A DNA stretch of 64,000 nt from Adineta ricciae (Eukaryota > Rotifera > Eurotatoria > Adinetida > Adinetidae). The stretch covers positions 1-64,000 of the forward strand of contig CAJNOJ010000395.1 of the NCBI GenBank assembly GCA_905250025.1, read 5' to 3'. Shown in pieces: positions 1 to 64,000 of this stretch. A program made the position numbers and the translations under genes. Each line of letters opens with the position of its first letter. The stretch's first letter is position 1. The notes under the pieces are model-generated. The model did not search any database, was not told the DNA's origin, and saw only the letters and a list, made by a program, of their open reading frames with translations.

Positions 1-560
1 AGTTGGTTACTTGGATATTTCTGTCTGATGATATATGCAACGTGGATTTCGAGTGATATCATTAGAAATAATTCTAAACTATAATATAAAACAACTTTGT
101 GCGTTTTAAACTCTTCTACTAAGGTGTTTTCAAGGTATAAAAAAGTGCCACTTTATGAGAACTTTTTGGGCATAATCCTCAGGGTTATTCGCAAATTTTC
201 GCTCTATAGATAATTAGAGATATCTTAAAATTTCATCAGCATGAACTTACAGTGATCCTGAACCATATAACAGGATCACCCAAGCAAAAATTTATAACGA
301 TCATACTTCACCCAGATCATCTGGGTGAAAAAAGTTTTTAGCACCACCCAGCACTTCCAACCACGGTTTGTGCATATTGGAGGTCTAAACTCTCTATTTA
401 TGTGATTAATTCTTTCTTCATTTCACAAAAACCCTCTTCGGCTTTTAAGGGTTATAGTTATATTTTGCAGATTATTTTGACCGTTTATTGATAAAACAAA
501 AAAAAAAGACTTTATCATAAACAAATACAGATGAAATGCGCCACTAAAAAAGGTGAATAT
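1..560. other. non-coding flank with hairpins
   Basis: I see no convincing gene here. The stretch is AT-rich and lies downstream of the minus-strand gene that ends at 561. Its only structure is two short inverted repeats between 252 and 327, listed separately. Confidence 0.6.
252..327. repeat. two adjacent short inverted repeats
   Basis: GTGATCCTG (252-260) pairs with CAGGATCAC (271-279) across a 10-nt loop. CACCCAGAT (309-317) pairs with ATCTGGGTG (319-327) around a single base. Both are perfect 9-bp stems and could form hairpins. They may be a remnant of a small palindromic element or a 3'-end structure of the gene ending at 561. Function is unknown. Confidence 0.5.
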
Positions 561-1421
561 TTAAAGCTCCACACGAGAAGCTGATTGGTTTCTTTTTGAT
601 TTTGTGTTATAGAATGCGTGAAAATCCGGAACAATATAACCAGGAACGATTGGATGTCGTATTGAATGTAAACTCTTTTTACCATCTTCAACCATCAGAA
701 TACATGACGATAATTTGCGTTCATTGATTCTTTCTTGTTCTTTGAGACCTTCATTGAATGATGAAATCGGCTTTTCAATATATCCATTACCACCATCATG
801 ATAAACCAAAATGAAACGAATTACAGAGTTATCACTGACAAGGTGCAAGCCATGGCTGTAAATACTTTTAGTGGGATGGAGTAATTTGTCAAACATTCGA
901 ACTGAAACATCATTGATGAAGTTTTTAATTTCTGATATAATATGTGATGGGACTTCTGTACGACACCCGATCCCGAGCCAGCAGCTTTCTTCTTTTACTG
1001 TATAGCTCAAAAACAACGTCAGATATCCGTCTGGAATACGAGCAAACACAAATCTTTCCCAAGTTCTTCCCATCTGAAATGTCCCTTGGTTTGTATAATC
1101 GAAATCTTTCTTTATGAAGTTTTGATAAGTGTCATCGTATGTTATACTTTTGAAACTTGTTCTGAAATGCTGTTCAAGCTCATAACCTGTTGGCAATTCA
1201 TTCCATACAATCACGCGCGTTGTACTTGCTTTAACGGACACGTGGTCTCTAATATAGCCATTAAGTGCTCCATCTACATTGACGGTCAAAGTCGACAACA
1301 TTTGAGAATTGTCTATTCGATCCAGGAAACGAATTTTTGCTGCCGTCAGATCTGTTAATGTTACTGATTTGACGAAGATGTTGATCCATAGAAAATGATA
1401 CAAAAATTGTGTCGTCCACAT
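561..1421 (-). CDS. secreted protein with unrecognised ectodomain
   Basis: This is a 286-residue ORF with a true ATG. I do not recognise the family. Residues 1-20 are hydrophobic and look like a signal peptide, so the product is probably secreted. Residues about 68-135 resemble residues 52-120 of the neighbouring gene at 1631-2620: both contain an R-V-I-x-W-N motif, a P then L-x-x-H-F, and a T-x-E-R-F-x-x-A-x-x-P motif. The two genes are therefore probably paralogs sharing an ectodomain. The C-terminal third (from about residue 195) has no counterpart in the neighbour. The gene is head-to-head with the neighbour, 209 bp apart, suggesting a shared promoter. No introns are evident, and no transmembrane segment is visible beyond the leader. 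A continuation in a further exon downstream cannot be excluded. Confidence 0.6.
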   Translation of the reverse strand: MWTTQFLYHFLWINIFVKSVTLTDLTAAKIRFLDRIDNSQMLSTLTVNVDGALNGYIRDHVSVKASTTRVIVWNELPTGYELEQHFRTSFKSITYDDTYQNFIKKDFDYTNQGTFQMGRTWERFVFARIPDGYLTLFLSYTVKEESCWLGIGCRTEVPSHIISEIKNFINDVSVRMFDKLLHPTKSIYSHGLHLVSDNSVIRFILVYHDGGNGYIEKPISSFNEGLKEQERINERKLSSCILMVEDGKKSLHSIRHPIVPGYIVPDFHAFYNTKSKRNQSASRVEL

Positions 1422-1630
1422 CGGTTGCCTTTGTTAAGTATACTTTATTTGGGAAAAAATGGATAAGAATACTATGTGACTAGGTGCGTCTCTTTCACAA
1501 ATTTCACTGATATGCTGAATATCTCGCTTTTTCTCTTTCTTCCTAATGACAAATTATCATAAACAAATTTTAAGGTATACTTTTGTGTAATCAATCTTAC
1601 CATCATTGTTTCTATTTTGTTTGAGACTCA

Positions 1631-2620
1631 ATGTATAGAAGAAGTCTCTTGTTGGTAATAATGTCTTTTGGTATACTGGTTCATACCGCAAAGAATGGCG
1701 TGGAAATCAATTCTGCTCATTCATTAAAACGTGATATGATGACTCTTGAGTCCGAACTTGGATTCAGTACCCTTGAATCAAGTTATATTCGAGTTATTAA
1801 CTGGAACATGCCACCAAACATCGAGGACTTACAACCACATTTTAAAAAATTTAGTTTGTTGCAATTAGAAGAGAAACGACTTACAAGTGGGAAATTGAAT
1901 ATCATAGAGAAAGATGAATCTACTTACGAACGATTTCTTTATGCTGATTTTCCTGAACAACAATCGACCGTCACGATTTTTGTCAAAGTCAATTTTCTCA
2001 ACAAAGGGGGTTTATTTTCGCTGGAAAAGTTGATTAAAAAATTCAATACGATCTCGAAAAAATACAATTTAATTGAACAAGAAGGTATAGACACACAGGC
2101 TTCTATTCATCCAGATAGTTCAAATTCATCGTATGCGTATATCATTTGGGCCGGAATTATACCTGTGTTGTTGTTATTACTTATTATTCGGAAAGTTATT
2201 CTTCCACGACTGATTTCTTTGTACAGTGAGCACAAAAGAAATCAATGCTTGAGAAAACTTCAAGAATACAAAGATAAACTTGCAAATCAGAAACAATCAT
2301 ATCCTTACAATCATCGTGATGTAGCTGTGACTTTAAATAGTATTGGTAATATGTACTATGACATGTACAATTATCCTGACGCGCTTTCATCTTACAACGA
2401 AGCTCTTGAAATTCAAAAAAAACTACATCCTCCAAATTATCCTGATTTGATTTTAATTTTGAATAATATCGATCGCGTATATCAAAGAATGAACAACAGT
2501 ACGCAGACCATTTCATTTTATGAATATGCTATACGAATTTTAGAGCAATCACCGGAAAGTTATTGTCTTAGTTTGGAAAAATTTAAGAAAAAGCTTGAAA
2601 GTGCAAAGAAGGAACAATAA
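1631..2620 (+). CDS. single-pass membrane protein with cytoplasmic TPRs
   Basis: This 329-residue ORF starts at ATG 1631. Order of parts: signal peptide (about 1-20); ectodomain (21-168) carrying the R-V-I-x-W-N and T-x-E-R-F motifs shared with the divergent neighbour; one strong transmembrane helix (about 169-192); a basic juxtamembrane stretch rich in K/R; then two kinesin-light-chain-type tetratricopeptide repeats (about 225-310; motifs L-N-S-I-G-N-M-Y and A-L-S-S-Y-N-E-A-L-E). The layout is that of a type I receptor whose inside face is a TPR protein-binding platform. The TPR call follows from motif spacing and is solid; the ectodomain is unrecognised. Ligand and partners are unknown. No allelic copy is present in the window. 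Confidence 0.7.
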   Translation: MYRRSLLLVIMSFGILVHTAKNGVEINSAHSLKRDMMTLESELGFSTLESSYIRVINWNMPPNIEDLQPHFKKFSLLQLEEKRLTSGKLNIIEKDESTYERFLYADFPEQQSTVTIFVKVNFLNKGGLFSLEKLIKKFNTISKKYNLIEQEGIDTQASIHPDSSNSSYAYIIWAGIIPVLLLLLIIRKVILPRLISLYSEHKRNQCLRKLQEYKDKLANQKQSYPYNHRDVAVTLNSIGNMYYDMYNYPDALSSYNEALEIQKKLHPPNYPDLILILNNIDRVYQRMNNSTQTISFYEYAIRILEQSPESYCLSLEKFKKKLESAKKEQ

Positions 2621-3261
2621 CTCATATTTATCGCTTTTCTTATGTATCAGTTTGAAAACTGTTCAATAAATGTGAATGTAAGCGCTCATAGAAGAAACTT
2701 TAATTCTTGTGCAGATCATATTCACCACATAATAAGATAAACATTACTTACGTATTATTTGAAAAAAATTCACACACAATCGAATTATTTTATATTTACA
2801 GAACAAGAAAGATCTTTCTATATTGAATCGCATTAGTATTATAACCAATGCAGTATAGTCTGGAATAGAACGATATTCTAAATTAAACAGACTAACGAAG
2901 ATCGAATAATCACCAAAAGAAGATTTGCAAGATAGAATAAATCTGTTTTATACAGTGTTATGATGCAGTTCCTTAAAATTTCAATACAAATATATATCAT
3001 ACGAGTATTATCTTTTACTCGATTGTTGCCATAGATAATTATGTATGACTATAATTCGTTCAACAAAGATATTGTGCGACATCTTTTCTTAAAACACGAA
3101 AATATGAACTCCAATCGAATTCAAATATATTCTTATCACGTGAGGAGAACAGTTTTGAGGGATATATATATATATATATAAATCATAGTTAAACAAAGAC
3201 GAAAGGCAGATAGATTCGTTATCTGTTCAAGAGAAAGACATCCGAAATTGTTTTGTTCGAT
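2621..3261 (+). other. intergenic; start of haplotype homology
   Basis: No gene was found. From about 2818 the sequence matches 5560 onward, upstream of the second F-box copy, and stays collinear into the coding region. Before that point the two blocks are unrelated. A short (TA)n tract lies near 3163-3180 and is shorter in the homologous copy. Confidence 0.6.
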
Positions 3262-3918
3262 ATGATGTTAAATCAATCCTCATTATATCATCATTTTCAA
3301 CACTCATCAAAGAAACGAACACATAAGCTTTCTCAACATTCGGAACGATTAACGAAACGATTGAAATCAACAAATGCAGCAAAGACAACACTTGAATGTT
3401 TACCCAATGAATTATTTTACCAGATCTTTTCCTATTTAACCGACCGAGAATTGCTCGCTTCATTCAATTTCTTCCCATTACATCGTCGTTTCAACGAGTT
3501 GATTCACAATCGCACATCAATCAACCTTCATTCAATTCAACGCTCGCAGTTTATTGAACATTTCTATGAAAATGCATCAATCATTCCGCAAATTCTCCGT
3601 CAAATTCGTTTATTCAATACAGATGAAACGCCCGGTTTAATCAACTTCTTCTTTGCAATCTATCCATTGGATTTATTTTCCAATTTAAAAATCTTAGCTC
3701 TCGATCAACCAGAACAAAAAGATTTACTTGTAAGTAAAATCCATGAGAACTCTTCTTTATTTTCTTCATATTCCTATTCGATAGAAATTAATGAAATACT
3801 TTCCTCACCTCGAACATCTATCCATTCGTCTTTCAACCGTAGTTCGAATGCCAGCTATGGTCTATACAAATCTTTATTCGTCCATTGGAAATTCTTCGCT
3901 TAAATCGTTAACTATTCA
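3262..3918 (+). CDS. F-box/LRR protein, 3'-truncated at assembly join (haplotype 1)
   Basis: Exon 1 is 3262-3729 and exon 2 is 3785-3918. They are separated by a 55-bp GT-AG intron (gtaagt...gatag) in phase 0. The real start is ATG 3262; a TTG nine bases upstream is not needed. The F-box is at about residues 46-90 (motif L-E-C-L-P-N-E-L-F-Y-Q-I-F-S-Y-L), followed by degenerate leucine-rich repeats. F-box proteins bind SKP1 and recruit substrates to SCF ubiquitin ligases; the LRRs would bind the substrate. The copy stops at the N at 3919 inside the LRR region. The intact copy at 6001-7933 shows what is missing. It differs from that copy by scattered substitutions, as expected of an allele. Confidence 0.8.
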
Positions 3919-3919: not shown

Positions 3920-4317
3920 ACTTTATTTATTCTTCTCGTTGTTTTCATTTGCTTAAGTATCTTTTTATCAATTATCAACGATAATTTTCGACTCGCGCGG
4001 GAAAAAGTCATCGAAGATCCGGAAGTATTTTCATACATAACGAAGAAATTTCTTCAATGGACAGGTAAAATTCATTAATGGAAGAACCTTTTCTACAAAT
4101 CTTTGTTTTAGGAATAAGAAAACGACCTGAATCGGAAATTCAAGAAGAAAAAGATCAACAAATGCGTGAAAATTATTTTTCTACAACCGATACACTTCGA
4201 TTGCGAACAAATCAATTGGTCAATCAAATTAATCGAGTACGAAATCTCTTTTCTTTGCTTTTCTTTTACAATTTCTCATTTCAGATGTATTTTAATCAAC
4301 GAACAACAAATGTCTAA
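3920..4317 (+). CDS. polycystin (PKD/TRPP)-type channel, C-terminal fragment
   Basis: Exons are 3920-4064, 4112-4236 and 4285-4317, with GT-AG introns of 47 and 48 bp; the stop is TAA at 4315-4317. The first exon reads a hydrophobic helix followed by I-I-N-D-N-F-R-L-A-R-E. This is the hallmark of the last pore helix (S6) and exit of polycystin channels, whose family pattern is N/S-x-x-L-x-I-I-N-D. A charged, coiled-coil-like cytoplasmic tail of about 50 residues follows. The rest of the gene lies outside this block because it is cut by the join at 3919. The family conducts cations, but selectivity cannot be read from this piece. There is no counterpart in haplotype 1 at this position. Confidence 0.65.
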
Positions 4318-6000
4318 AACAAAATCTTTTTCTTTTCTCTTTTATCGCTTTACTTGTTTTATTTTATCGAATTTTCAATAATAAAGATTATCGAACAAAA
4401 TATTTATTCATTGAAAACACAAATTGGATCTTTTCTTTGAAATTCATTTATATTAAATGAAAATGACATCTTCATTCACACTTTAATCTACTGAAAATAG
4501 TCTTTTTCAAAGAAACGATGAGATTTATTGAGAAAACTCGATTATTTTATTTAAATTCAACTAAATGTGAAAAACTATTTTGATTTTGATCCAATAACAC
4601 GATTATTCATCGTATTAAGAGAAAAAAGATAATTCACATTGTTTTATCGAAAGAAGATTTTGTTGTTCTTTTTTCTGTTCCCGTTGATTCATTTGATTTT
4701 CCAAATGGAAATTTTCGAATTAACATCGATAAATATTCTATTCGAAAGAGAAAGATAATCGAATGTTCATTTGTTTTTCATTACAACAATTTCTTTTGTT
4801 TCATCACTTCTCCACTTGATGACAATTTTCATTAGCAACATAAATATCATCTCGTATTGTCACAAAAAAGATACGGAGATAATTTATAAATAAAATAAAA
4901 TTGTTTTCATCGGAATGTTATTCTTATACGATCAAATCTCAATTGGATTTGTTTATAATGTGGTAAACATAAATTATGTTGTTTTTATCGACAAATAAAC
5001 GATAAGGTTTAGTTGAAACTGTTGAAAAGACAATTTCAATCGAATCTCATGATGCATTTGCACAAAATATCGTTTGATTCCAAATATTACATTTTATCAA
5101 GTGAAAATACAAATCAGAAAAAAGATTTCTCTTCTGAAGATCAGCATTGTTTAGTGTAGTTTGACGATAATTGTTTTATAAATGACGTTTCTTTGCAGGA
5201 TATACAATGTGTGTAGTGTTGTTCAGAAAATAATCAAAAATGGAATTTGATTCGTAAGTCCAATACAACAGTAAAGATAACTGCGCAATTTACTCATATA
5301 TATTTAATCATTCTTCATATTGACATATTGTGTTACGAGAGAAAACCAGTTTGTTATTGTTAGAAATATTTGAATGAAACAAATGGAAGTGTAATCCGAG
5401 ATGGAATTTATTTTGAGCTATGATTATAGAGAGAAAAAAAATTTTGTGGTGTAATCTTTTTCTAAACATCTATTAAGTTATTGATGAGGATTTGTTTGCA
5501 ACGAATGCGTATACTGATTTCGGTGAAACGAGCTGACAAAACAAAATCACAATTCTCTTTATATTGAATCGCATAAATATTATGACTAATGCAGTATAGT
5601 CTGGAATAGAACGATATTCTAAATTAAACAGGCTAACGAAGATCGAATAATTACCAAAAGAAGATTTACAAATTTGCAAGATAGAATAAATCTGTTTTAT
5701 ACAGTGTTATGATGCAACTCCTTAAAATTTCAATACAAATATAAATCATATAAGTATTATCTTTTACATGATTGTTACTGTGAATAATTATGTATGACTA
5801 TAATTCGTTCAACAAAGATACTGTGCGACATCTTTTCTTAAAACGCGAAAATATGAACTCCAATCGAATTCAAATATATTCTTATCACGTGAGGAGAACA
5901 GTTTTTAGACATATATATAAATCATCGTTAAACAAAGACGAAAGGCAGATAGATTCTTTATCTGTTCAAGAGCAAGACATCCGAATTTGTTTTGTTCGAT
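4318..6000. other. long AT-rich intergenic region
   Basis: I see no supportable gene in about 1.7 kb. The first part is the 3' flank of the polycystin-like gene. From about 5560 to 6000 it is the 5' flank of the F-box gene, homologous to 2818-3261. The short ORFs here have no domain signal. Confidence 0.6.
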
Positions 6001-7933
6001 ATGATGTTAAATCAATCCTCATTGTATCATCATTTTCAACACTCATCAAAGAAACGAACACTTAAGCTTTCTCAACATTCGGAACGATTAACGAAACGAT
6101 TGAAATCAACAAATGCAGCCAAGACAACACTCGAATGTTTACCGAATGAATTATTTTATCACATCTTTTCTTATTTGACCGACCGAGAATTATTCACTTC
6201 GTTCAATTTCTTCCCATTACATCGTCGTTTCAACGAGTTGATTCACAATCGCACATCAATCAACCTTCATTCAATTCAACGCTCGCAGTTTATTGAACAT
6301 TTCTATGAAAATTCCTCGATCAATCCGCAAATTCTCCGTCAAATTCGTTTATTCAATACAGATGAAACGCCCGGCTTAATCAACTTCTTCTTTGCAATCT
6401 ACCCATTGGATTTATTTTCCAATTTAAAAATCTTAGCTCTCGATCAACCAGAACAAAAAGATTTACTTGTAAGTAAAATCAATAAGAACTCTTCTTTATT
6501 TTTTTAATATTCCTATTCGATAGAAATTAATGAAATACTTTCCTCACCTCGAACATCTATCCGTTCGTCTTTCAACCGTAGTTCGAATGCCAACTATGGT
6601 CTATACAAATCTTTATTCGTCCATTGGGAATTCTTCGCTTAAATCGTTAACTATTCACGATGATCCTGATGAACCCATTACATTACCCGATGAACTGTCC
6701 TTTCCAAATTTAACTAAACTCAATTTAGGATCATTGAATATGTTTGACGTTCAGCGAATTCTTCGAGCAGCACCAAAATTAGCTTCATTCGCATTCCATC
6801 TCAATTCTGAACAGTCGAATCGTCAGTTCGAGCAAAATCTGCAAACAAATATCACAGGTTAAACGCACATTTGCTTCTTACGATATGAATATTCTCTTCT
6901 GTAGAACTTGATATTGATGGTCCACGCGCTGAATTTAATCAAATTGACAAGCTCTTGCGGCAAACGAAGAAATTACAACGACTGAAACTAGTCTGTCGCG
7001 GTGTTAGTGCATCGACTTGGGAAAATTTTATTAAAGAAAATTTATCAAATTTAATTAATTTTCGTTTTAAATTCGATATTCGTCAAAAAGATATTCAACT
7101 AATCGAATATGAACAAGATTGGTGGAAAACTGAAAAGAAATGGATTGTTGTAGGTCATCCATTATCATCATTAATCTATACAATACCTTTTATCGACACA
7201 AAATTAATCTTAAATGCCCGAACTGCCTATCGTCAAGAGGTTTCTGTTTTTCTCACGAAAATGCATCGAATTTATCTTGTGTATTCTGTAGAAATGTCCA
7301 TCATCGAAAGTCTCCAATGAATACTCGCACATTCGGCAGTTAATTTTAACATTGAATCCACTCGGATTCAAATTATGTCAAAGCGATGAAATTTACTTCG
7401 ATAAAGTTCATTCTCTAACCCTCATCGATTATAAACATTCACAAAAGCCAATTTCACATTTACGAACATTGATTAATCTGTCAACGGTTCGTCATTTAAC
7501 AATTGATCATCGAATGCGTTCGGGAACGTTCGTTTTACTGATGAAAGAAATGCCAAATTTACGTTCTTTATCTGGACAAGATGTCGCTTTCTCTGCGATC
7601 ACCAACAAATTTCAAAACGAACACGTCATTTCGTTTCTTAAAGAGAATATTCGCAAATTAACCTTAAGTCCATTCAAACCATGCGATGACATTCGTTACG
7701 TCTCGCAACTATGCGTTATTTTCTCACGTGTCCATCATTTATCATTGAGTATTAAGTGGGCTGTGGATATTTGGCCTTGGTTAACCAAAATTGCAAGTCT
7801 ATCCAGTGCAACTGTTTTCTGTCGTTATGGATCATTCATTGATTTAATCAATGATCCCAATAATCACAAATGGTTTTTTAATTGTACCTATGAATTACGT
7901 AGTCATCAAGATTTACGTTTATGGATTGAATAG
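6001..7933 (+). CDS. F-box/LRR protein, complete (haplotype 2)
   Basis: There are four exons: 6001-6468, 6524-6857, 6905-7239 and 7292-7933. Introns are 55, 47 and 52 bp, all GT-AG. Phases join cleanly to a 592-residue protein ending at TAG 7931-7933. The F-box is at about residues 46-90 (L-E-C-L-P-N-E-L-F-Y-H-I-F-S-Y-L). The remainder consists of irregular leucine-rich repeats such as P-H-L-E-H-L-S-V-R-L and P-N-L-T-K-L-N-L. The predicted role is a substrate adaptor of an SCF (SKP1-cullin-F-box) ubiquitin ligase; the substrate is unknown. It converges on the GNAT gene at 8072, 138 bp away. Partial allelic copies sit at 3262-3918 (5' part) and 9347-10274 (3' part); together they lack only about 360 bp. 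Confidence 0.85.
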
Positions 7934-7934
7934 G

Positions 7935-7955
7935 TGATGATGATGATGATGATGA
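7935..7955. repeat. (TGA)n microsatellite
   Basis: About seven tandem TGA units lie directly after the F-box stop codon, between two converging genes. A shorter version is at about 10276-10295 in the other haplotype copy. Confidence 0.85.
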
Positions 7956-8071
7956 GCATTTTATTTGTCTCTGTAGATTTGTTCGCTTTATTTAATATAT
8001 AAATAAACATATGAAGAGAGATATGCGAATGTTTTATTAAGTCAATAAAATTCCTCAGATAAAAGACAATA

Positions 8072-8767
8072 CTATTCTGTTTCGTTATCAGCGATGAGTG
8101 TAATAAGAATGTTTGAGATAACTTCATCATTGTAATTGCGATATGGATAAACTAAACGGTCTGTTTGTTTCTTCCATCGCCAAGTAGCTGGATCGATACT
8201 GGTCAGTTGCCGTCCATTCATTTTATTTACATAGATGTGTTGAACGACTGGATTTGTTGCTCGAACGAATGCATATCGGAAACCTTTCAAATTTCTAGCT
8301 TGTTCACATAGAACTTCGTGTAATCGTGTCGCAACGCCATTTCCTGTGTGATCACTGCGAACTGCAATGATGAGAATGTGCAAAATCGTGTTTGGCTTCA
8401 ATTCTTGATTGAATTCCGAACGAACAAATCGATCACTTAACTCATCATACAGATCACTTAGTGCAAGAGTTCTCGGGGGATGAGAAATATCATATGGATA
8501 CTTTTCTCTATTGAGATAAAGATCGCCGGCGATGATTGTACCAATAATTTCCCCAGATAAACGTTCTCGCGCAAGAAAAGACAATTTTTCGTCGAAAACA
8601 TCAGTTAATAATGGCCATGAATGATCATCGAAAAACGAACGAGTTGTCAGGCGATCGAATAAAGTTATTGGATGACGAGACGTAAACTCTTCCGCAATTA
8701 ATTGTGCACATAATCTTGCATCTTTTTCATTATCAATAATTTCATACGCATATTCATCGTTTGCCAT
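8072..8767 (-). CDS. GNAT-family N-acetyltransferase (haplotype 2)
   Basis: A 231-residue single-exon ORF with ATG at 8767. The acetyl-CoA-binding motif A of the GNAT fold is visible at about residues 131-152 (I-I-A-V-R-S-D-H-T-G-N-G-V-A-T-R-L), with the R/Q-x-x-G-x-G/A core as R...T-G-N-G. Next come a helix and a strand reading F-V-R-A-T-N, and a motif-B-like H-I-Y-V-N-K-M. Overall length and layout resemble arylalkylamine/dopamine N-acetyltransferase-like proteins of invertebrates. That subfamily assignment is only suggestive and the acceptor substrate is unknown. No targeting signal is seen, so it is probably cytosolic. The upstream region, conserved for about 180 bp, has been copied elsewhere (12471-12660, 21380-21560). 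Confidence 0.8.
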   Translation of the reverse strand: MANDEYAYEIIDNEKDARLCAQLIAEEFTSRHPITLFDRLTTRSFFDDHSWPLLTDVFDEKLSFLARERLSGEIIGTIIAGDLYLNREKYPYDISHPPRTLALSDLYDELSDRFVRSEFNQELKPNTILHILIIAVRSDHTGNGVATRLHEVLCEQARNLKGFRYAFVRATNPVVQHIYVNKMNGRQLTSIDPATWRWKKQTDRLVYPYRNYNDEVISNILITLIADNETE

Positions 8768-10274: not shown

Positions 10275-10412
10275 ACGATGATGATGATGATGATGAGCAT
10301 TTTATTTGTCTCTGTAGATTTGTTCGCTTTATTTAATATATAAATAAACATATGAAGAGAGATATGCGAATATTTTCTTAAGTCAATAGAATTCCTCAGA
10401 TAAAAGACAATA

Positions 10413-52753: not shown

Positions 52754-55700
52754 CTACTTCCATCTCGCTTGAAACTGATATTGACCAGAGCCCATGTGCA
52801 CAGTCACTGCATTAGTAACTGAATCTTTTTCCACAAGAAACTTCGAGTCATCGCTGCTGCCTGTATCAGATGTCCAAATCGTTGTATCACTTTCGAGTAA
52901 CGCCACGCATTGTGCAGAGACGAACAATGGTTCAAATATCATCTGAGCTCGCATATTTACTGGTATAGTAACACGAAGTAAAATTGAGTTTGCAACTGTA
53001 TCGCGTTCATCGCGAGTATATGAAATATGGATAAGACCATACAATGTGCTTAGCTGACAATCTAACTTATTCATCAAATGTTTCTTCGCTTCTGATGCCA
53101 TTCGTGGCCGTATGATGATCTCGTTCACGCGTAGATCGATGCCAGCCAAATGTGAATAGAACCATGCACCCACACTACCATACATAATGTGATTACGTGA
53201 ACTCATCGGCCCAAGAAATGGAGCGTCGAGCCATTCCCAAAGAGTAGTCGAATTTTCATAAGGATTTGTGAACATGTATCCATATGATGGATAGGTGGTA
53301 GAGGAAATCATTTCTAACGCTAAATCATGATGTCCATGATCAGATAGGATGGGATATAACTGAGCTGTGGAAACAATGCCTGTTGTAGCATGATTTTCAT
53401 TATTCATAATATTTTGAACTAAATAGTTGACTACTACATCACGGATCGTTGGTGGGACGACACCCGGTAATGCTAATGCTAGTACTTGGGCTGCTTGCAG
53501 ACCATCGGCATAAAAATTTGTCGTCTGATTGTAGAAGACACGATGAAACTCGTTTGTCAGCTGTTGATAAAATCGGGAATACACGTCAGTGTCATTCTTC
53601 TTGCCAAGTATTTGGGACATATTTAGTAAAAGATAGAGATCATGAAGAAAAGCGTAGGATGTTGTTAAATGTTCATTAGTTCTAGGATTTGGTGCCGGTT
53701 GAAGCCAATCCCCGTAACGCGCAATGAAATTAACCAATCCAGTCTCTTGGTAGCTGTGTCGAAGAAATTCTACATAAGCTCGAATCGAGTCATAATAATC
53801 TTCAAGAATTTTAACATCATCATAGTGTCGATACAGCTGCCAAGTGATAGTGGGCAATGCACTTCCCCAATTCGGATCAGCTGGATAGGGACCTCCTAAG
53901 CCAGGAACGATATCAGGTACTTGTCCGTCGTCCAACTGCATGTCGATAATTAAATTAAGAAAGTTTCGATAAAACTTCATCAAATCAAAATTGTACAAGG
54001 CTTCATCGACAGACAAGGCAGCATCACCTAACCATCCACGACGTTCATCACGTTGCGGACTGTAAAATAAAAGTCAACAGAAGTCTAATTTATTTTCTAA
54101 CTGTAAAAAGTAGATCGTACATACCAGTCTGTAGGTACCGACATTAAATTACTCAACTGACCCCATTGAATATTGTGTTGAATTTGGTTAATAGTTGGAT
54201 TACTCGTGCTGAAATGACCTTTCAGAGTTGTTTCGCTATGAGCAACAAGACACTGAACATCATCGGGCGTCATGGCACTTGGAGAATTAAACACTGATAG
54301 ATAACGAAAACCATGAACAGTAAAACTAAGAGAAAAGCAAAACAATAAATGTAAAAAGAAGATTATATATTATGCTATATATTTTACATTGGTTCGTAGA
54401 TATCTCCGAGAGGGTCTCCCCGGAGGATATAGATGTCCGATGCGGTAGCGTTACGAAGATTTTCTACGTAGAGATTGCGAGTAGCCACACTGAAATGGCA
54501 TCATAGTATTCAATTAGGATGAAGATACGATCTCCTACTTTGTAGAAGCTATTGGCTGTACTAATATCTCTGCATGACGAACGGAAGTACTGAAGCCACG
54601 CGGCCCTTGGAATCTGAAACGACACCATCCGACCATATTCTGACCGAGATCAAACGTTCGTACACCTGTGCGATAGATTCATTTTTACTCGTCGCTCTAT
54701 ATTTATATACTGTAGCATACCTGAATCAGATATCCACGAATCAATAGGTTTCAGTATACCACCATCAGCCAACGAGGCACCTTTGATTTCACCAATATCT
54801 TGAAGCGTTAAATAGCTGCGTTCTGATGACTGATCTAGTCCTACTTCAAAATGTAATGCATCCGGTCCCGCACGAATAGGTGGCATATCTTGAAGAACTA
54901 GGAAACCCATTGATGAATCATTGACGGGTGATCTTAACGATTCAGGCGTGATCCATGCATATCGACTATCGTTGAAATTCGGTCGCGTCCAATTTAGTCG
55001 ATCACTTCGACTATCGTAGATTTCACCGCGGTAAACACCATCATATTTTATTGAACCTTCTCGGCCTGTCCATGTTTGATCACTAACAACTTCCATTTGA
55101 TTGTCATTATCAAATGTGATCAGCAGAGTGAACAGCAGACGGGGTGGACCGAAAATAAGCAATCACAATTGGTTTTAACGAAAAATCATGGAAGAAAAGT
55201 TTCCTATTTACCATAGGTTTCTCGGCCGTGCTGTTCGATACTATACCAACCATTGCCCAACTTGACTCCAACGGCATTCATACCGGTCTAACCAGATATG
55301 TAGAAAAGAGATCTTCTTTCTCATGTAAAGGAAAAGGATTGCATTTCTCACGGTAATATTTGCAGTAACATCGAATGATACAACTAAGGTACGTTTTTCA
55401 TAAGTCGTCCAACCCGGATCTAGTTTGCGACTAGGATCGACATTTTCACCATTGAGATAGAACTGATAATATCCTAAACCACATAAATAAACAATTGCAG
55501 ATTTGATCGGACTATCAGCGGGCACAAAAAACTCTTTGCGCAATTCGTTCATATTAATCTCTGTTGAACCAATCCACAGAAGTTCAGTTTTGTTGATCAA
55601 ATAATCATGTAAATCAAATATCGGTGTACGAAATAGAACCCATTCTGTCCATTGAGTTGGTTCGTCGATGTTGCTCAACCAGATTCGTACACGAAACTGA

Positions 55701-56050
55701 TAGTATGTCGATGGTAAGAGATCAACATGAGCTTGGTATAGGACATGTATTGATCGTGAAGAAATCACACGCTGACTATCCCATTCAAATGGTTTTTCTC
55801 CTCGAGATAATCTCGTCGACTTTAGCTGAATTTGGTAGGCAATTTGTTGCACATTTCGATCGTGAACATTGTCTGAAACACGAAGTTTCCAGGAAAACGA
55901 TGGCCTAGGTGTATTGATTATCAAATCACGAGTGGTATTCACTTTATGATGATCGATTCGAATATCCAATGGAGCTGGAGGATGACTAGCCGCAGCTAAT
56001 CCAATGATAAACAAAAGACAGCAAATTCGGTGCAGATGTAAAAAGAGCAT
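52754..56050 (-). CDS. secreted GH78 alpha-L-rhamnosidase (haplotype 2)
   Basis: Seven exons in reading order: 56050-55352, 55287-55212, 55149-54721, 54665-54539, 54489-54388, 54325-54125, 54059-52754. This gives 979 residues, one codon longer than the other allele (S-S-E-R-S-Y for S-E-H-S-Y). The signal peptide, D-C-P-Q-R-D-E-R-R-G-W-L-G-D motif and T-L-W-E-W motif are intact, and this allele keeps A-R-Y-G-D-W. The intron before exon 3 again ends in CG instead of AG, as in the other copy. The gene is followed about 220 bp upstream (on the plus axis at 56271) by the F-box family 2 gene on the same strand. Confidence 0.88.
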
Positions 56051-56270
56051 CTGTTGAGTCTATTATGTAAAAAAATCTAACAAGCGCGTGTTTCGTGTGC
56101 TTTATCTATCTTTACACTCATTATTAGTATCTTCTGTATGTTTGCCTGCACTCCATTTCAGGATAGATAATAACAGATGATAAAATATTAAGATTTCATT
56201 AGCGACAAATTTCTTTTTACTAATGCAAATCAAACGGAAAAAGGCAACTTTCATTTTCGCTTTAAAATCC

Positions 56271-58001
56271 TTATAAATCAATCCATATTCGAACATGATG
56301 AACATAGCGAGAATCTCGTTTAATTGAACATCTGGGGGGTAAGTATTGTCGTAGCCATAGATCAAGTTGCAGATTGTCTGTGGTCCACAAATTCGACCCA
56401 TCATCATCCTTCGATCGAACGATTAAAGCCCGTAATCTTCGCATGGTTTCGATTAAGTAACATATATCATTTCGTTTTTCAACTTTAATATAAAGTACTT
56501 CACAATTGGTACCTAGTAATGATTGACTTAATTCAACGCAATCTTGTTCAGTAAACCAATGATTATAACCGAGAAGGTTGAGCTTTCGAATCGATTGATT
56601 AACGATGCGTATCCACCGTTGCTGCGTTGTTTGTGACCATGAATGAAATTTCAAATAATAAAGATGTGGTGTATGATCAAGCAGTGTTTGTAATTGGTTG
56701 CGTGCCTCCTCGTCCGACATATTACTCGGTCGTGTTATTTTCAGCGAATACAGTTGATCCAGTTTTCGCACAAGTGATAACAAATGATCGTTGATAGGTA
56801 GATTAACTGATAAATTGTTAATATTAGGAAACTCAAAATCCGATCCACCGGTCATTTCATTTACTGCTGACGAATGATAGCTTAAATTTCGTACATATTC
56901 ATATGATAAATGATCTTTTTCATTCAAGCAAGTAGATTTGTATACGACAGGAAAATGAATATCAAGAGTAGAAAAATTGTATGGCAATGTATAGACGCAA
57001 ACCATATTCGCATTGTGATCTTGATTATAATGGTAGCGAATGAACCATTGATGCTCTTTCACCCAAAATGGTGTTTGAAATGAATTGAACAATTCTTTTC
57101 GGTATTTTTCGTTCATCACGTGCGATCGCATTTTTAATTGAAGATGTTTTAATTTCGGTAAATACTTCCGTATAAGTTGTTCCCATTCGTATCCATTCAT
57201 ATCTACATAGCATGTTTCAATCTTTAATTGACACAGATTTGGCATACATCGTAACAAATTCTCAATAAACGCATGTTGGGCACCAATCACGATAAAATTA
57301 ACTTCGGTAATCAATGGAATCGTAGTGTGAAATTCGATATTAGCAGTCGGACATGATAAATCTAGTGCAAGATATCGAAGACGAGGTGTATGTTCACAAA
57401 GATTGATCACTTGTCCGGCAGGATATGAAACACCAATAATGGTTAAGTGTTCGATGGTTGCTGAAAATATCGTTGGACTTAAAATCTGCGATCCGTGTTT
57501 GAAATCCATATTCAAATAACAGTAAATCAGTTTCGGTAATCTCCAGACTATATTCATGAAATGTAGAATTTCCTTTTGCGTGCAGGCAAAATAACATCCA
57601 GTTAAACTGAGACGAACTAATTGAGGACATTCTACGAGAATGTCACCGATGATCTCACTAGAACGAAGGTGATCGAATGAGAGTGAACGAAGATGCGGAA
57701 ATCGATCGAGAGTCCAACCATTGGATCGAAATAACTCGATTTGGTTGGGTGTTTCGTCATCGTCCGATAAGCCCAACGAAACAAGATGATCTTTGATGTA
57801 TGGAAAATAAGTTAGACAAACATTATAAAAATCTCTTCTTGTTGCTGCTCGAAAATCGAAACGAGACGTTTGAAAATGTACATGAATCAACTGATCAAAC
57901 CTTGTATTCAATCGGTAGAATGCTTGAAGTACATGAACACTAGGAAGATAGCCAAATATTTCAAGTAATAATTCATTGGCAAGCAATTCTAAACTCATCA
58001 T
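56271..58001 (-). CDS. F-box/LRR protein family 2, complete (haplotype 2)
   Basis: Single-exon gene of 576 residues from ATG 58001; a second ATG directly follows at 57998. The F-box is at residues ~3-45 (L-E-L-L-A-N-E-L-L-L-E-I-F-G-Y-L-P), then about fifteen irregular leucine-rich repeats run to the C-terminus (V-R-I-W-I-D-L). The predicted role is recognising substrates for SCF ubiquitin ligase. It is unrelated at the sequence level to the F-box family at 6001-7933 beyond the shared architecture. Its allele is split between 48965-50417 and 60084-60560. Confidence 0.85.
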   Translation of the reverse strand: MMSLELLANELLLEIFGYLPSVHVLQAFYRLNTRFDQLIHVHFQTSRFDFRAATRRDFYNVCLTYFPYIKDHLVSLGLSDDDETPNQIELFRSNGWTLDRFPHLRSLSFDHLRSSEIIGDILVECPQLVRLSLTGCYFACTQKEILHFMNIVWRLPKLIYCYLNMDFKHGSQILSPTIFSATIEHLTIIGVSYPAGQVINLCEHTPRLRYLALDLSCPTANIEFHTTIPLITEVNFIVIGAQHAFIENLLRCMPNLCQLKIETCYVDMNGYEWEQLIRKYLPKLKHLQLKMRSHVMNEKYRKELFNSFQTPFWVKEHQWFIRYHYNQDHNANMVCVYTLPYNFSTLDIHFPVVYKSTCLNEKDHLSYEYVRNLSYHSSAVNEMTGGSDFEFPNINNLSVNLPINDHLLSLVRKLDQLYSLKITRPSNMSDEEARNQLQTLLDHTPHLYYLKFHSWSQTTQQRWIRIVNQSIRKLNLLGYNHWFTEQDCVELSQSLLGTNCEVLYIKVEKRNDICYLIETMRRLRALIVRSKDDDGSNLWTTDNLQLDLWLRQYLPPRCSIKRDSRYVHHVRIWIDL

Positions 58002-58172
58002 GCGCAACTAGTGATACGTGAGCAAATGTGTTGCAATAACACAGTATTATTTACGAAAGTTATAAGGCAAAAAGCAAATATTTTTTCTCTCTCTATCATT
58101 CTCGATGACGGTTGCGCATGTTTAATGTTATGACACAGAAAAGAAAGAAATATGATGCATGTCGACTGACAT

Positions 58173-58970
58173 CTACAATTGTGCAGAATAATATTGATAT
58201 TGGAGAAAAAGACTTGCAAGAAAAAAGAAAGTACCACCAGTAACACAAAAGATTGCAGAGATATTTGTTTGAAATTCGTTAGCACTGTATTCAAATGGTG
58301 CAAAGAATACACCAAGGAAATAAAACACACCGCCAAGTCCATTACAGATGTTAAAGCATAATGACGAAAGGTTGTTAATGAGATTTGTACAATGAAAACT
58401 ATATTCGTATGGATCCGTGCGGTTACGACGACCATTGTTACAGATTTGCCAACATGCAGACAGAAATATAACAACAGAGCCAATCATGATTAACCAGTTA
58501 CCTATATGCGTGTGTTTTTCGAAATAAGGGATTAACAATGCTGATCCAGATACATAACAGGCTGATCCACATGATGTAATAAACGAACGAGCAACAGTTA
58601 AGCGATCCACTTTGCGTGGTTTCATAGAATCGGAAACTTTTCGATCGTACCACCATTGCTGAAGATCAGCAAGGAGAAGAAAGGATGAACCGATAGTAAA
58701 AAGCCATCCACCAACCGTTAAAGCTAATGCAAAGTATCGCATAACTTTAGCAAAGTACATACATGATGCACCGATTAGAAATAATCCACCCAACATGAAA
58801 TGAATTCCATGAATTACTTTCCATCGAAATGAGGGAGAGTTCTCAAGATTGTCTGTGTTAGAGCACGGAGATCCAGGGACGATCAAAACACTATTACTTT
58901 CTTTATTTGCCAGTGTGTTCTGCACTTTTGATAAGAATACAATAAAACAAACATTCGAAAGATTGTGCAC
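58173..58970 (-). CDS. YrhK-like multipass membrane protein (haplotype 2)
   Basis: About 265 residues with three repeats of paired helices. Each second helix carries a G-x-W/F-x-x-x-I-G-S motif (G-G-W-L-F-T-I-G-S-S-F-L-L-L-A-D, G-N-W-L-I-M-I-G-S-V-V-I-F-L, V-T-G-G-T-F-F-F-L-A-S-L-F-L). This matches the YrhK family, mostly known from bacteria, with unknown function. The 5' end is unsettled: the open frame begins with a GTG and no in-frame ATG precedes the first helix, so a short upstream coding exon probably exists. It lies only ~68 bp downstream of the pentapeptide gene on the same strand. Horizontal origin is possible. Confidence 0.7.
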   Translation of the reverse strand: MHNLSNVCFIVFLSKVQNTLANKESNSVLIVPGSPCSNTDNLENSPSFRWKVIHGIHFMLGGLFLIGASCMYFAKVMRYFALALTVGGWLFTIGSSFLLLADLQQWWYDRKVSDSMKPRKVDRLTVARSFITSCGSACYVSGSALLIPYFEKHTHIGNWLIMIGSVVIFLSACWQICNNGRRNRTDPYEYSFHCTNLINNLSSLCFNICNGLGGVFYFLGVFFAPFEYSANEFQTNISAIFCVTGGTFFFLASLFLQYQYYSAQL

Positions 58971-59037
58971 TTCAAAGTGTACGAAATTTGATCACTATTA
59001 TTCTCTTTTCGACACCTTCTCGTAATACCCTCCACGC

Positions 59038-60057
59038 TCAAACATATGCATGTAGTGTTGTTCCATTGGGTAAGGTCACTTGATCGATTTTCACCCAAGA
59101 GTGTATTTGTTCCGGATCAAAATCGATACAACCAGTCAAATCCACGTGCGACAGGGAGGAGTTTTGCAACTGCATGCCAAGCATTGAACAGTTACGCACT
59201 GACACCTGATAAAATAGGCATCGTTGAAAGTTGGTGTAACCGAAATCGACTCCATCAAGATTAACTCCGTGAAATTCAGATTCAACAAAATAGCTGCTAC
59301 TTATATTTCCATCCGTGATTGAAGAGAAAGCAAATATGCTTTTGATAAACCTCCCATGGTCGAAACGAGACTTTGTTCATAGGTATCGCTTCAAATGACA
59401 CACTCTCCAATTGAGATCCGGTAAATCTGACGTTGTTCAGCGTGATTGTCAAATCGAAATCAAAGTTGTCGAGTTTTGAAAAAGACCAATCGCTATAATC
59501 AAGATTAGAAAATGCAAACGAGGGCGAATGAGAGAAAGACATGACACGGAATGATGCATGACGCATATCGGCATGTTGAATGTCCGGACAGTCGCTTACG
59601 TGATGGATAAACAATTGGTCGAATTGTATTCCGCTAACATTAGCTTGATAGAGCATTGACAATTCTCCTTTCAATTCTTTGCGAAGTAGATTAGCCTGAA
59701 TGAGATTTTTTAAAAGAATCGTCCGGCGTGAGATGCCAAGTGACTGTAAGGTATTTCGTGTTCGCATCTGTAGAACGAATAGAAATCTTAAACTGAACCC
59801 GTTCGAATACAAATAATCAGCGAATAAGATCGACAACTCACGTTGATATTCAATTAATACATTCCCACGCTCAAGATTCTTTTCGACAAGCACTTCGTTC
59901 AGAGAATTTTCTTGCTTAACTCCAAGTTCATCAGCGCGCTTCTGCTGATATAGACTACGTTGCACTTCGGCTAACGCATACTCTTGTCGTCGTTTATCTA
60001 TCGCTGTTCGCAAGTCGTGCGTACGCTGTGCATAAGCCGTTTGGTTATCATCTTCAC
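59038..60057 (-). CDS. coiled-coil/pentapeptide-repeat protein, 5'-truncated and frame-broken (haplotype 2)
   Basis: The frame is open from the gap at 60058 (D-D-N-Q-T-A-Y-A-Q-R) through a helical region (E-Y-A-L-A-E-V-Q-R-S-L-Y-Q-Q-K), a globular linker (L-Q-M-R-T-R-N-T-L) and pentapeptide-type repeats (A-D-M-R-H-A-S-F, F-S-N-L-D-Y-S-D-W-S-F). Near 59290-59340 the frame shifts: one frame ends K-Y-K-stop, while the next carries the conserved C-terminus (S-S-Y-F-V-E-S-E-F ... T-L-P-N-G-T-T-L-H) to the stop at 59038. No GT-AG intron restores the frame, and ~20-25 residues present in the paralog at 62749 are missing. This is probably a deletion with frameshift. Confidence 0.65.
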
Positions 60058-60083: not shown

Positions 60084-60560
60084 GTAAATCAGTTTCGGTA
60101 ATCTCCAGACTATATTCATGAAATGTAGAATTTCCTTTTGCGTGCAGGCAAAATAACATCCAGTTAAACTGAGACGAACTAATTGAGGACATTCTACGAG
60201 AATGTCACCGATGATCTCACTAGAACGAAGGTGATCGAATGAGAGTGAACGAAGATGTGGAAATCGATCGAGAGTCCAACCATCGGATCGAAATAATTCG
60301 ATTTGGTTGGGTGTTTCGTCATCGTCCGATAAACCCAATGAAACGAGATGATCTTTGATGTAGGGAAAATAAGTTGGACAAACATTATAAAAATCTCTTA
60401 TTGTTGCTGCTCGAAAATCGAAACGAGACGTTTGAAAATGCACATGAATCAACTGATCAAACCTTGTATTCAATCGGTAGAATGCTTGAAGTACATGAAC
60501 ACTAGGAAGATATCCAAATATTTCAAGTAATAATTCATTAGCAAACAATTCTAAACTCAT
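60084..60560 (-). CDS. F-box/LRR protein family 2, N-terminal part (haplotype 1)
   Basis: Starts at ATG 60560 (M-S-L-E-L-F-A-N-E-L-L-L-E-I-F-G-Y-L-P) and contains the F-box and the first leucine-rich repeats, ending at the gap. Its last 202 bases (60084-60285) match the end of block e (50216-50417) with one mismatch. It therefore completes the gene at 48965-50417. Confidence 0.82.
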
Positions 60561-60730
60561 CCTGCGCAGCTGACGATACGTGAGCAAATGTGTTGCAATA
60601 ACACAGTATTACGAAAGTTATACGGCGGAAAGTAAATGTTTTTTTTCTCTCTCTCATTCTCGATGACGGTTGCACATATTTAATGTTATGATGTAGAAAA
60701 GAAAGAAGTATGATGCATGTCGACTGACAT

Positions 60731-61528
60731 CTATAATTGCGTAGAATAATATTGATATTGAAGAAAAAGACTTGCAAGAAAAAAGAAAGTACCACCGGTA
60801 ACACAAAAGATTGCAGAGATATTTGTTTGAAATTCGTTAGCACTGTATTCAGATGGAGCAAAGTACACACCAAGGAAATAAAACACACCGCCAAGTCCAT
60901 TACAGATGTTAAAGCAGAATGATGAAAGATTGTTAATGAGATTTGTACAATGAAAACTATATCCGTATGGATTCGTGTGGTTACGACGACCATTGTGGCA
61001 GATTTTCCAACATGCAGACAGAAATATAACAACAGAGCCAATCATGATTAACCGGTTACCTATATGTGTGTGTTTTTCAAAATAAGGAATTAACAATACT
61101 GACCCAGTTACGTAACAGGCTGATCCACATGATGTAATAAACGAATGAGCAACAGTTAAGCGATCCACTGTGCGTGGTTTCATAGAATCGGAAACCTTTC
61201 GATCGTACCACCATTGCTGAAGATCAGCAAGGAGAAGAAAGGATGAGCCGATAGTAAAAAGCCATCCGCCAACCGTTAAAGCCAATGAAAAGTGTTGCAT
61301 AACTTTAGCAAAGTACATACATGATGCACCGATTAGAAATAATCCACCCAGCATAGAATGAATTCCATGAATTACTTTCCATCGAAATGTGGGAGAGTTC
61401 TGAAGATTGTCTGTGTTAGAACACGGAGATCCAGGGACGATCAAAACACTATTACTTTCTTTATTCGCCAGTGTGTTCTGCACTTTTGATAAGAATACAA
61501 TAAAACAAGCATTCGAAAGAGTGTGCAC
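60731..61528 (-). CDS. YrhK-like multipass membrane protein (haplotype 1)
   Basis: Allele of 58173-58970: the same length, the same three G-x-W-x-x-x-I-G-S repeat units, and the same lack of an in-frame ATG at the 5' end. Substitutions such as G-N-R-L-I for G-N-W-L-I and R-P-K/T-V-D are scattered. The shared GTG beginning in both copies supports a missing upstream exon rather than a sequencing error. Confidence 0.7.
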   Translation of the reverse strand: MHTLSNACFIVFLSKVQNTLANKESNSVLIVPGSPCSNTDNLQNSPTFRWKVIHGIHSMLGGLFLIGASCMYFAKVMQHFSLALTVGGWLFTIGSSFLLLADLQQWWYDRKVSDSMKPRTVDRLTVAHSFITSCGSACYVTGSVLLIPYFEKHTHIGNRLIMIGSVVIFLSACWKICHNGRRNHTNPYGYSFHCTNLINNLSSFCFNICNGLGGVFYFLGVYFAPSEYSANEFQTNISAIFCVTGGTFFFLASLFLQYQYYSTQL

Positions 61529-61595
61529 TTCAAAATGTACGAAATTTGATCACTACTATTCTCTTTTCGACACTTTCTCGTAACATCCTTCACAC

Positions 61596-61856
61596 TCAGA
61601 CACATGAATGTAGTGTTGTTCCGTTGGGTAAGGTAACTTGATCGATTTTCACCCAAGAGTGTATTTGTTCCGGATCAAAATCGATACAACCAGTCAAATC
61701 CACGTGCGACAGGGAGGAGTTTTGCAACTGCATGCCAAGCATTGAACAGTTACGCATTGACACCTGATAAAATAGGCATCGTTGAAAGTTGGTGTAACCG
61801 AAATCGACTCCATCAAGATTAACTCCGTGAAATTCAGATTCAACAAAATAGCTGCT
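61596..61856 (-). CDS. pentapeptide-repeat protein, C-terminal piece (haplotype 1)
   Basis: Eighty-six residues from the join to TGA at 61596, with pentapeptide-type sequence (V-N-L-D-G-V-D-F-G-Y-T-N-F) and the terminal T-L-P-N-G-T-T-L-H-S-C-V. It is nearly identical to 59038-59296. The join at 61857 falls exactly where the haplotype 2 copy loses its reading frame. Confidence 0.75.
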   Translation of the reverse strand, partial: SSYFVESEFHGVNLDGVDFGYTNFQRCLFYQVSMRNCSMLGMQLQNSSLSHVDLTGCIDFDPEQIHSWVKIDQVTLPNGTTLHSCV

Positions 61857-61857: not shown

Positions 61858-62629
61858 TTATCCAAGGCACATCAAGCAGTCCACCTTGATGGAGAGTATG
61901 AACGACGATGGTTCGACGTTTCGGATCGAGAAGTCGCAATGCTGATCTTGTTCGCATTTGCAAGATGACCATATGTATGAAATGCGAAATATTACCATTC
62001 GTATCAACGAAAAGTAATTGTTTGGCTAAGTCCCGTTGGTATTTGACTAATATCGTTCCTTTCCACCGTTCATCTTCTAGTTTCAAATTGCTCAAATAAT
62101 TTTGTTGCGCGATTTCGATTTCATGAGCGCGTTGAGCTCGATAAAGACTACGTTGCTTTTCGGCTAATTCATACTCTTGTTTTAGTTTATTTGTAGCGAT
62201 TTGAAGATCTAATTCACGTTGTAAATAAGCCGTTTGTTTATCATCTTCTAGTTGAAGACGTGTCAGTTCTCGATCTTCGTTGCGACGAATCCGCGACAAA
62301 TTTTGATCTTCTTCACGTTGGATACGAGAGAAATTTTTGTCATCCTCACGTAACAACCGTGCTATTTCACGATCTTGTTCACGCTGTATTTGAGCTTCCT
62401 CTGTGTCGTTGACACGTCGTTCCGCTCGCACTAAAACATCCTTCTGACGGTGGCTTTGAGCAACATTTTGCTGTTGAATAGAAACAATAATTGTAAAAAC
62501 GCCAATGATTAGCGGAATGGTTAAATTTGAAATAACTTTCAAATAATCTTCTGTTTTCAAACGATTGCTGCTTTCACGATCTCCTCGTTCTGTACTTGCT
62601 TGAACATTCGTATCAATCGGTTGTTCCAT
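61858..62629 (-). CDS. membrane-anchored hendecad coiled-coil protein, 3'-truncated
   Basis: ATG at 62629; about 257 residues before the join. A short N-terminal tail is followed by one transmembrane helix (residues ~32-51; I-P-L-I-I-G-V-F-T-I-I-V-S). A long helix follows, built from 11-residue repeats of the type R-E-E-D-x-x-x-x-R-I/L-Q (about 75-150). A second helical stretch (E-Y-E-L-A-E-K-Q-R-S-L-Y) and a linker (L-Q-M-R-T-R-S-A-L-R-L-L-D-P-K-R-R-T) come next; in the downstream paralog this linker precedes the pentapeptide repeats. The expected product is a membrane stalk carrying a pentapeptide beta-helix. It is only ~50% similar to the gene at 59038-60057, so it is a paralog rather than an allele. 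Confidence 0.78.
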
Positions 62630-62748
62630 ATTGATTTCACACGAGTCTCCTATATGCGATACTCAACATGTCTCGCTGTTTCAAGTGCAAGTTTTATTAG
62701 TTAAATCTGTCGTCTAGTTTATTTGTAAATAGAATGTCAAAACTTCAT

Positions 62749-64000
62749 TCAACAAGAAAACTGTTGTCCTTTGATAAATGTTCCATTGGGTAAAGTTGTT
62801 TGATAGAAATGAGATATTCCGGAAATTTGTTGAGAAGTTAATCCAGTGCATCCAGTCATGTTCACGTTCGACAATCTCGTCCTATCAAATATTGTTCCGG
62901 AAAGAGAACAATAAAACATTGATACAGCACAGAACGTACATCGGTTCAGATGAGCACCCGAGAAATCGACGCCATCGAATGTGACACTTTGAAACGTTGA
63001 CTGAACGAATGACCCGTGACTTAAATTACTGCCAACCATTGATAGTTGCACGAACTTTGAGTCTAAAAAGTTCGAGTGATCCATTCGAGAATTCAGAAGA
63101 ACTGTTTTAACGAATTGACAATGAGTACATATGTCGTTGTATTGAAAGGATACTCCATCCATTAACACGGTCTTATCAAAGTGAACTGCAGTTAATTGTG
63201 TTCGGAAGAATCTGGCCGCATTCATAGAGATATCATTTTGAAAGTAAGCATTTGTGATAATACTGTTAGACCAATCAGTATAATCCAGATTTGAAAACTG
63301 AAATATGGGCGAATCGTACAGACACACTCCTTGAAACGAAGCATATCGAAGATCGGCCCCTGCTGCATTCAGATAATCATATTTAGTACAGAGATTAAGG
63401 TCGATTTTACCGACTAAATAGCCGAATTCCACTCCGCTCAAGTTTGTCCTATAAAGTAATGATTGACTACGATCTCGTTCTAAATCAAGAATTCCTGCAT
63501 CGAAAAGTGTATTCACAAGAACAGTTCGGCGTTGAGGATCAAGCTGTCGTAGTGCTGCAGCAGTCTTCATCTGAAGTATAAACCACCATTTACTCTTCGG
63601 ATCTTTGAATAACGATCCATATTCTAACAACAATGTCGCCAGATCATCTTGATATTCTAGAAGTACATTTTCCTTTTGACGACCGTCTTCTAACAGGAGA
63701 TCATTAATTCGATTTTGATGTGCAATTTCTAATTCTTGTGCACGTTGTTGTTCAGACATGTTTCTTTGCAATTCTGCAAGTTCATAATCTTGTATCCGTT
63801 TGTCAATGGTGATTTTCAAATCAAGTTCACGCTGTAATCGAACTGTTTCCTTGTCTTCGAGACGCTGCAGTCGAGCAGCTTCGCGATCTTCTTCACGTTG
63901 AAGACGAGCTGTTCGTTGATCTTCCTCTCGTTGCAATCGTGTCATCGTTTTGTCTTCCTCACGTTGTAACCGAGCCGTTTCGCGATCTTCGTCACGCTGT
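62749..64000 (-). CDS. hendecad coiled-coil/pentapeptide-repeat protein, 5' end outside window
   Basis: Open from the window edge to TGA at 62749. It begins within tandem 11-residue repeats (E-D-R-E-T-A-R-L-Q-R-E, E-D-K-T-M-T-R-L-Q-R-E, and so on) that form a right-handed hendecad coiled coil. The E-L-A-E-L-Q-R-N helix and the L-R-Q-L-D-P-Q-R-R-T linker follow. About 230 residues of pentapeptide-type repeats (A-D-L-R-Y-A-S-F, S-N-L-S-H-G-S-F, V-D-F-S-G-A-H-L) come next, then a T-L-P-N-G-T-F tail. The upstream transmembrane anchor is inferred from the paralog. It lies 119 bp from the paralog, in a head-to-tail array. Confidence 0.8.
   Translation of the reverse strand, partial: QRDEDRETARLQREEDKTMTRLQREEDQRTARLQREEDREAARLQRLEDKETVRLQRELDLKITIDKRIQDYELAELQRNMSEQQRAQELEIAHQNRINDLLLEDGRQKENVLLEYQDDLATLLLEYGSLFKDPKSKWWFILQMKTAAALRQLDPQRRTVLVNTLFDAGILDLERDRSQSLLYRTNLSGVEFGYLVGKIDLNLCTKYDYLNAAGADLRYASFQGVCLYDSPIFQFSNLDYTDWSNSIITNAYFQNDISMNAARFFRTQLTAVHFDKTVLMDGVSFQYNDICTHCQFVKTVLLNSRMDHSNFLDSKFVQLSMVGSNLSHGSFVQSTFQSVTFDGVDFSGAHLNRCTFCAVSMFYCSLSGTIFDRTRLSNVNMTGCTGLTSQQISGISHFYQTTLPNGTFIKGQQFSC

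Follow-up and report, generated by a model that had tools for sequence, protein, structure and literature searches.

Positions 1-64,000 (the window) of the 82,180-bp contig CAJNOJ010000395.1 (C395) of the bdelloid rotifer Adineta ricciae were analysed. The window almost certainly contains a false haplotype (heterotype) duplication: as judged from the sequence, two haplotypes of one locus would have been interleaved by the assembly rather than duplicated in tandem. The appearance of repeated tandem duplication is most likely an ordinary assembly error and not biology.

Seven N runs cut the window into eight blocks, designated a to h. Six were single Ns, at 3919 (join a/b), 9346 (b/c), 20392 (c/d), 34668 (d/e), 50418 (e/f) and 61857 (g/h), and one was a run of 26 Ns at 60058-60083 (f/g). 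Blocks a (1..3918), c (9347..20391), e (34669..50417) and g (60084..61856) were assigned to haplotype series 1, and blocks b (3920..9345), d (20393..34667) and f (50419..60057) to series 2. Block h begins at 61858, occupies the window to 64000 and runs on to 64,964; beyond the window C395 has one further single N, at 64,965, followed by the scaffold tail to 82,180. The original prediction, that all eight blocks alternate between two versions, stood for blocks a to g. Block h, which represents a single haplotype, lies outside the alternation because its second version is on another contig, C394.

Overlap and divergence of neighbouring blocks

Pairwise re-alignment bore out the overlaps predicted at the joins. 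All six pairs of neighbours from a to g overlapped, by 1.1-8.5 kb each, and the overlapping stretches were homologous, collinear and on the same strand. They were 2813-3918 versus 5554-6657 for a/b (1.1 kb; block a matched b nowhere else), 7006-9345 versus 9347-11687 for b/c (2.3 kb), 11491-20027 versus 20393-28863 for c/d (8.5 kb, in two BLAST pieces), 28918-34667 versus 34853-40600 for d/e (5.75 kb), 43314-50415 versus 50534-57721 for e/f (7.1 kb), and 57522-59298 versus 60084-61856 for f/g (1.8 kb). Non-self matches longer than 100 bp at an E value of 1e-10 were absent from 20 shuffles of the window in which 3-mers were reordered.

Blocks a to g (1-61,856) tile one locus of about 33 kb in two versions. 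When placed on a common axis, which disregards indels, the block starts climbed steadily (1, 1179, 4265, 6409, 14750, 23280 and 30383), with g stopping before f. Genes in the overlapping stretches of 2,813-61,856 accordingly occur twice. An N run was present at each of the six joins between overlapping neighbours, and no junction fell inside continuous sequence, where those of a genuine tandem duplication would be expected.

With the six pairs pooled, 1,781 of 26,432 ungapped sites differed (6.7%), the values for single pairs being 4.9-7.4%. Nine gene pairs, all taken from overlaps other than a/b, gave a synonymous divergence (dS) of 0.11-0.19 and a non-synonymous divergence (dN) of 0.020-0.044. 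The published median divergence of homologous gene copies in A. ricciae is 4.55%.

Shared ends and continuity of genes

The last 197 bp of block b (9149..9345, + strand) were identical to the first 197 bp of d (20393-20589; 197/197), though c intervenes. Likewise, the last 202 bp of e (50216..50417, + strand) matched the first 202 bp of g (60084-60285) at 201 positions, with a single mismatch, though f intervenes. These ends are near-identical, short, terminal and printed twice, as are overlaps at contig boundaries. No other overlap between block ends was found among all ordered pairs (15-400 bp, at most 2% mismatch or one). At the level of sequence, the shared ends show that d extends b and that g extends e on the same haplotype. 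The links a-c, c-e and d-f would follow from collinearity, so that of the two series described in the original prediction as collinear throughout (a-c-e-g and b-d-f), two links were confirmed by shared ends and three depend on gene order and position. In the a-c link about 0.35 kb and in the d-f link about 2.6 kb appear to be missing, small values of this kind being approximate. The ends of the c-e link are unmatched, since c finishes in a dispersed repeat and e starts with a G run. A phase switch at a-c, c-e or d-f would not change the main conclusion.

Open frames were followed across the same ends. Joining b to d through the shared end gave an open frame of 331 amino acids that follows the 319-amino-acid GPCR-type frame of c, and joining e to g gave one of 591 amino acids that follows the 578-amino-acid LRR-like frame of f. 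(The name LRR-like refers to a weak Pfam match of 23.6 bits, under the family cut-off of 27.) Across the printed join b/c there was no open frame of 150 amino acids or more, and across e/f there was only a truncated frame of 512 amino acids. Both frames tried were thus intact when alternating blocks were joined, and interrupted in the printed order. N joins truncate at least three genes: the first GPCR-type gene, the LRR-like gene, and an LDLR/EGF gene at the end of block d.

The order GNAT, two GPCR-type genes, amidohydrolase and ART-TPR, which had been predicted to be the same in c and in b plus d, was recovered as open frames in that order in both. In block d this gene set is followed by an ART gene and the LDLR/EGF gene. 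Pfam was run on one copy per gene (GNAT, both GPCR-type genes and amidohydrolase from c; ART-TPR from d), and the remaining copies were named by homology. The second GPCR-type gene matched 7tm_1; the first had no Pfam match at 0.001 and is 84% identical in DNA to the second.

Copy number and the partner contig

Genome searches were made against the 130.46-Mb assembly of 1,033 contigs, seemingly only those above about 10 kb. Three internal queries (30,000-31,000, 44,000-49,500 and 13,800-19,400) each returned one other close copy, which was the partner in C395. The remaining matches were mostly at 62-74% identity, with short pieces (45-110 bp) reaching 91%. More distant copies lie elsewhere, for example at 73% identity on C576 and 68% on C102.

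Beyond 61,848 it is C394 that carries the second version, matching, with some insertions, from its base 604 through the 20 kb compared. Over 10 kb aligned, 529 of 9,970 sites differed between the right flank of C395 and C394 (5.3%). On this sequence evidence the second haplotype turns into a separate contig near the end of the alternation. Bases 1-603 of C394 and the last 759 bases of f matched only themselves in genome searches, and no direct succession from f to C394 was seen there. Local BLAST found one 158-bp paralogous stretch of the tail of f, at 73% in h and 72% in C394.

The original prediction had favoured an assembly artefact over tandem duplication. This choice was upheld, because the shared ends of alternating blocks, the continuity of frames, the similar divergence of the pairs, the lack of a third close copy for the three internal queries and the continuation on C394 all agree.

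Alternative explanations

The blocks might come from two mixed individuals or strains, or from chimeric DNA, as the DNA would have been whole-genome amplified if the assembly is Ar_ARIC003 (according to a passage of PMC7943196). Two versions of similar divergence, with the pair continuing on a separate contig, are however what is expected for the two haplotypes of a clonal line, and mixed strains should yield more than two versions in places, of which none was seen for the three internal queries. This origin was judged to be very improbable.

A real piecewise tandem duplication of the locus on one chromosome, with the versions side by side, is the order that the scaffold prints when it is taken literally, and homologous blocks on the same scaffold are reported for bdelloid drafts in the portions consulted of PMC5916493. 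Against it, all six junctions from a to g stand at N runs. The near-identical 197- and 202-bp ends belong to alternating blocks, and the two frames are whole only across these. An array together with its homologous chromosome should yield more than two close copies, whereas the three internal queries yielded two each, self included, and six separate events would need to be of similar age. We consider such an array extremely unlikely, and there is next to no chance that a bdelloid chromosome not divisible into haploid sets carries both versions in physical linkage, ordered as printed.

That the two versions are ohnologs of the ancient bdelloid genome duplication, and not alleles, has a negligible probability: bdelloids are degenerate tetraploids, so two related gene sets do exist (stated in sections of PMC5916493 and PMC7943196), but the versions differ by 6.7% and are collinear through the overlaps, against degenerated gene order and a median of 24.9% given in part of PMC5916493 for the diverged set of A. 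vaga, and the more distant copies on C576 and C102 sit elsewhere.

Several observations weigh against interleaved haplotypes. The f/g join has 26 Ns rather than one, despite the overlap of f and g, and three of the five same-haplotype links lack shared sequence. Divergence in 1-kb windows ranged from 3.8% to 12.8% and was thus uneven at fine scale. The longest identical runs (99-174 bp) exceeded in all six pairs the 81-93 bp roughly expected of evenly spread differences. Tracts of identity between the versions, checked for gene conversion or loss of heterozygosity, show uneven divergence, which is expected with coding and non-coding DNA. N runs were denser in C395 (eight in 82 kb) than in the 13 other contigs sampled (two in 200 kb), which speaks for the error, but the flanks of these two joins (on C1 and C500) had no allelic overlap within the 20 kb compared, and single Ns are therefore not always marks of it. 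Finally, the genome searches rated best candidates only and seemingly left contigs below about 10 kb outside, so that extra or collapsed copies could escape.

Proposed mechanism

Haplotypes about 7% apart would have been too different for the assembler to merge, and would have given separate contigs broken at different places, with each break in one haplotype spanned by a contig of the other. A scaffolder tolerant of divergence, which we infer to be responsible, may then have joined every contig at its end to whichever contig of the other haplotype overlapped it, to give the order a-b-c-d-e-f-g. Because neighbouring contigs really overlap, the estimated gap would be negative; with sequences too different to merge, one contig would be set after the next and a token N written between them. 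SSPACE-type programs write one N for a negative gap, and this may be the reason for the single Ns in C395. Nothing on the one-N convention for negative gaps was found in the literature passages searched. Single Ns and a tiling order are predicted by such a mechanism, to which the 26-N gap at f/g is an exception. One chromosome copy would in truth carry a..c..e-g and its homologue b-d..f; beyond these blocks the two would run on as the C395 tail and as C394, whose series we infer.

The 2018 assembly of A. ricciae was scaffolded using SSPACE, GapFiller and SSPACE-LongRead, according to a portion of PMC5916493. The methods section consulted for the Ar_ARIC003 sample names no scaffolding step. For Ar_ARIC003, 39% of BUSCO genes were duplicated (in an excerpt of PMC7943196), which suggests a partly haplotype-resolved assembly, although ohnologs add duplicates too.

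Comparison with known assembly errors

This kind of error is already well described in print. The Vertebrate Genomes Project defines false heterotype duplication, and classes overlaps at contig boundaries as homotype duplications (passages of PMC8081667 and PMC9516828). As in the heterotype kind described there, both haplotypes of a divergent region are present in one assembly, adjacent and with gaps between them, and genes are doubled or truncated; divergence was at the allelic level both in the window (6.7%) and between the C395 tail and C394 (5.3%). In contrast to the one duplicated pair of those passages, the haplotypes of C395, compared here by sequence alone, alternate through seven contigs. 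The 197- and 202-bp ends resemble the contig-boundary overlaps that are printed twice in false homotype duplication (legend to Extended Data Fig. 5 of PMC8081667), except that in C395 the copies have a block from the other haplotype between them, and not a gap alone.

For bdelloid drafts, part of PMC5916493 counts 25 cases of homologous blocks on the same scaffold in the A. vaga assembly of 2013 (2 tandem and 23 palindromic) and 2 in the A. ricciae assembly of 2018, both tandem. In the same text, Nowell and colleagues note that many collinearity breaks in these drafts span scaffold gaps. The window is like those cases in that homologous blocks are linked on a scaffold and many breaks fall at scaffold gaps; it differs in that its sequence points to a scaffolding error and in that several blocks interleave, where the drafts have one repeat. 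In A. vaga assemblies, divergent haplotypes are reported to have been duplicated artefactually (passages of PMC8178825 and PMC10548655), and an excerpt of PMC7953838 names erroneous scaffolding as a source of false palindromes. Among the papers listed for this pattern, titles and abstract openings showed none on the scaffold analysed here.

The window is a clean worked example of how allelic blocks of an asexual animal can look tandemly duplicated in a scaffold. Such errors have to be ruled out before bdelloid drafts are used to infer the size of gene families, breaks in collinearity or the linkage of homologous blocks. Two cheap tests, for shared ends of alternating blocks and for gene continuity across them, flag the error from sequence without reads and could be applied assembly-wide.

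Block edges, genes and other features

The G+C content of the window was 36.6%. Two block edges, 1-454 in a and 20268-20391, the last 124 bp or so of c, are dispersed repeats that match tens of places in the genome; contig breaks at block edges are likely due to the repeats sitting there. The heads of a (1-2812) and b (3920-5553) had no mutual match, and dispersed repeats were found in both. Parts of 3920-5121, in the head of b, resembled other contigs, the best at 91% over 1.2 kb and 93% over about 0.5 kb. Block e opens with a G run broken by one A (34669-34700) that is missing at the corresponding place in d, and which we take to be a short-read sequencing artefact at the contig edge.

The ART-TPR gene is one open frame of 542 amino acids in d (26637-28265) and two frames in c (17794-19430); one allele may be broken or contain an assembly error. 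The open frame at 45451-46845 (allele 52754-54073) has a bacterial-type alpha-L-rhamnosidase domain (PF17389), and is possibly a horizontally acquired gene. Its DNA relatives, mostly at 64-70% identity, are on several other contigs. The open frames at 59297-60057 and 61694-62662 are adjoining paralogs (158 bp at 73%), and the latter had no Pfam match at 0.001. No transfer RNA was found in the window using ARAGORN with the bacterial code, and three tandem copies of a bdelloid-type telomere repeat were not present in the 82-kb scaffold.

Other contigs of the assembly

Pieces of five of the 13 sampled contigs were used as probes for close copies. The close copy was on another contig for two of them (C200 on C16, and C394 on C395), and none was found for C1 and C130, of which only 194 bp of C130 matched. 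On C300, the fifth contig probed, copies in the same orientation at 15751-16156 and 71958-72362 were 95% identical and 56 kb apart; C300 is a possible second case of this scaffolding error. A 221-bp repeat on C500 (1515-1735 and 2907-3127) was 99.5% identical, and its first copy stops exactly at the single-N join at 1736; it is perhaps another contig end printed twice. The gene-family searches gave pairs in the same orientation about 12-79 kb apart on one contig for C73, C94, C262, C292, C147, C199, C272 and C459, and three such copies at wider spacing on C148. The pairs on these contigs may be further interleaved haplotypes or true tandem genes.

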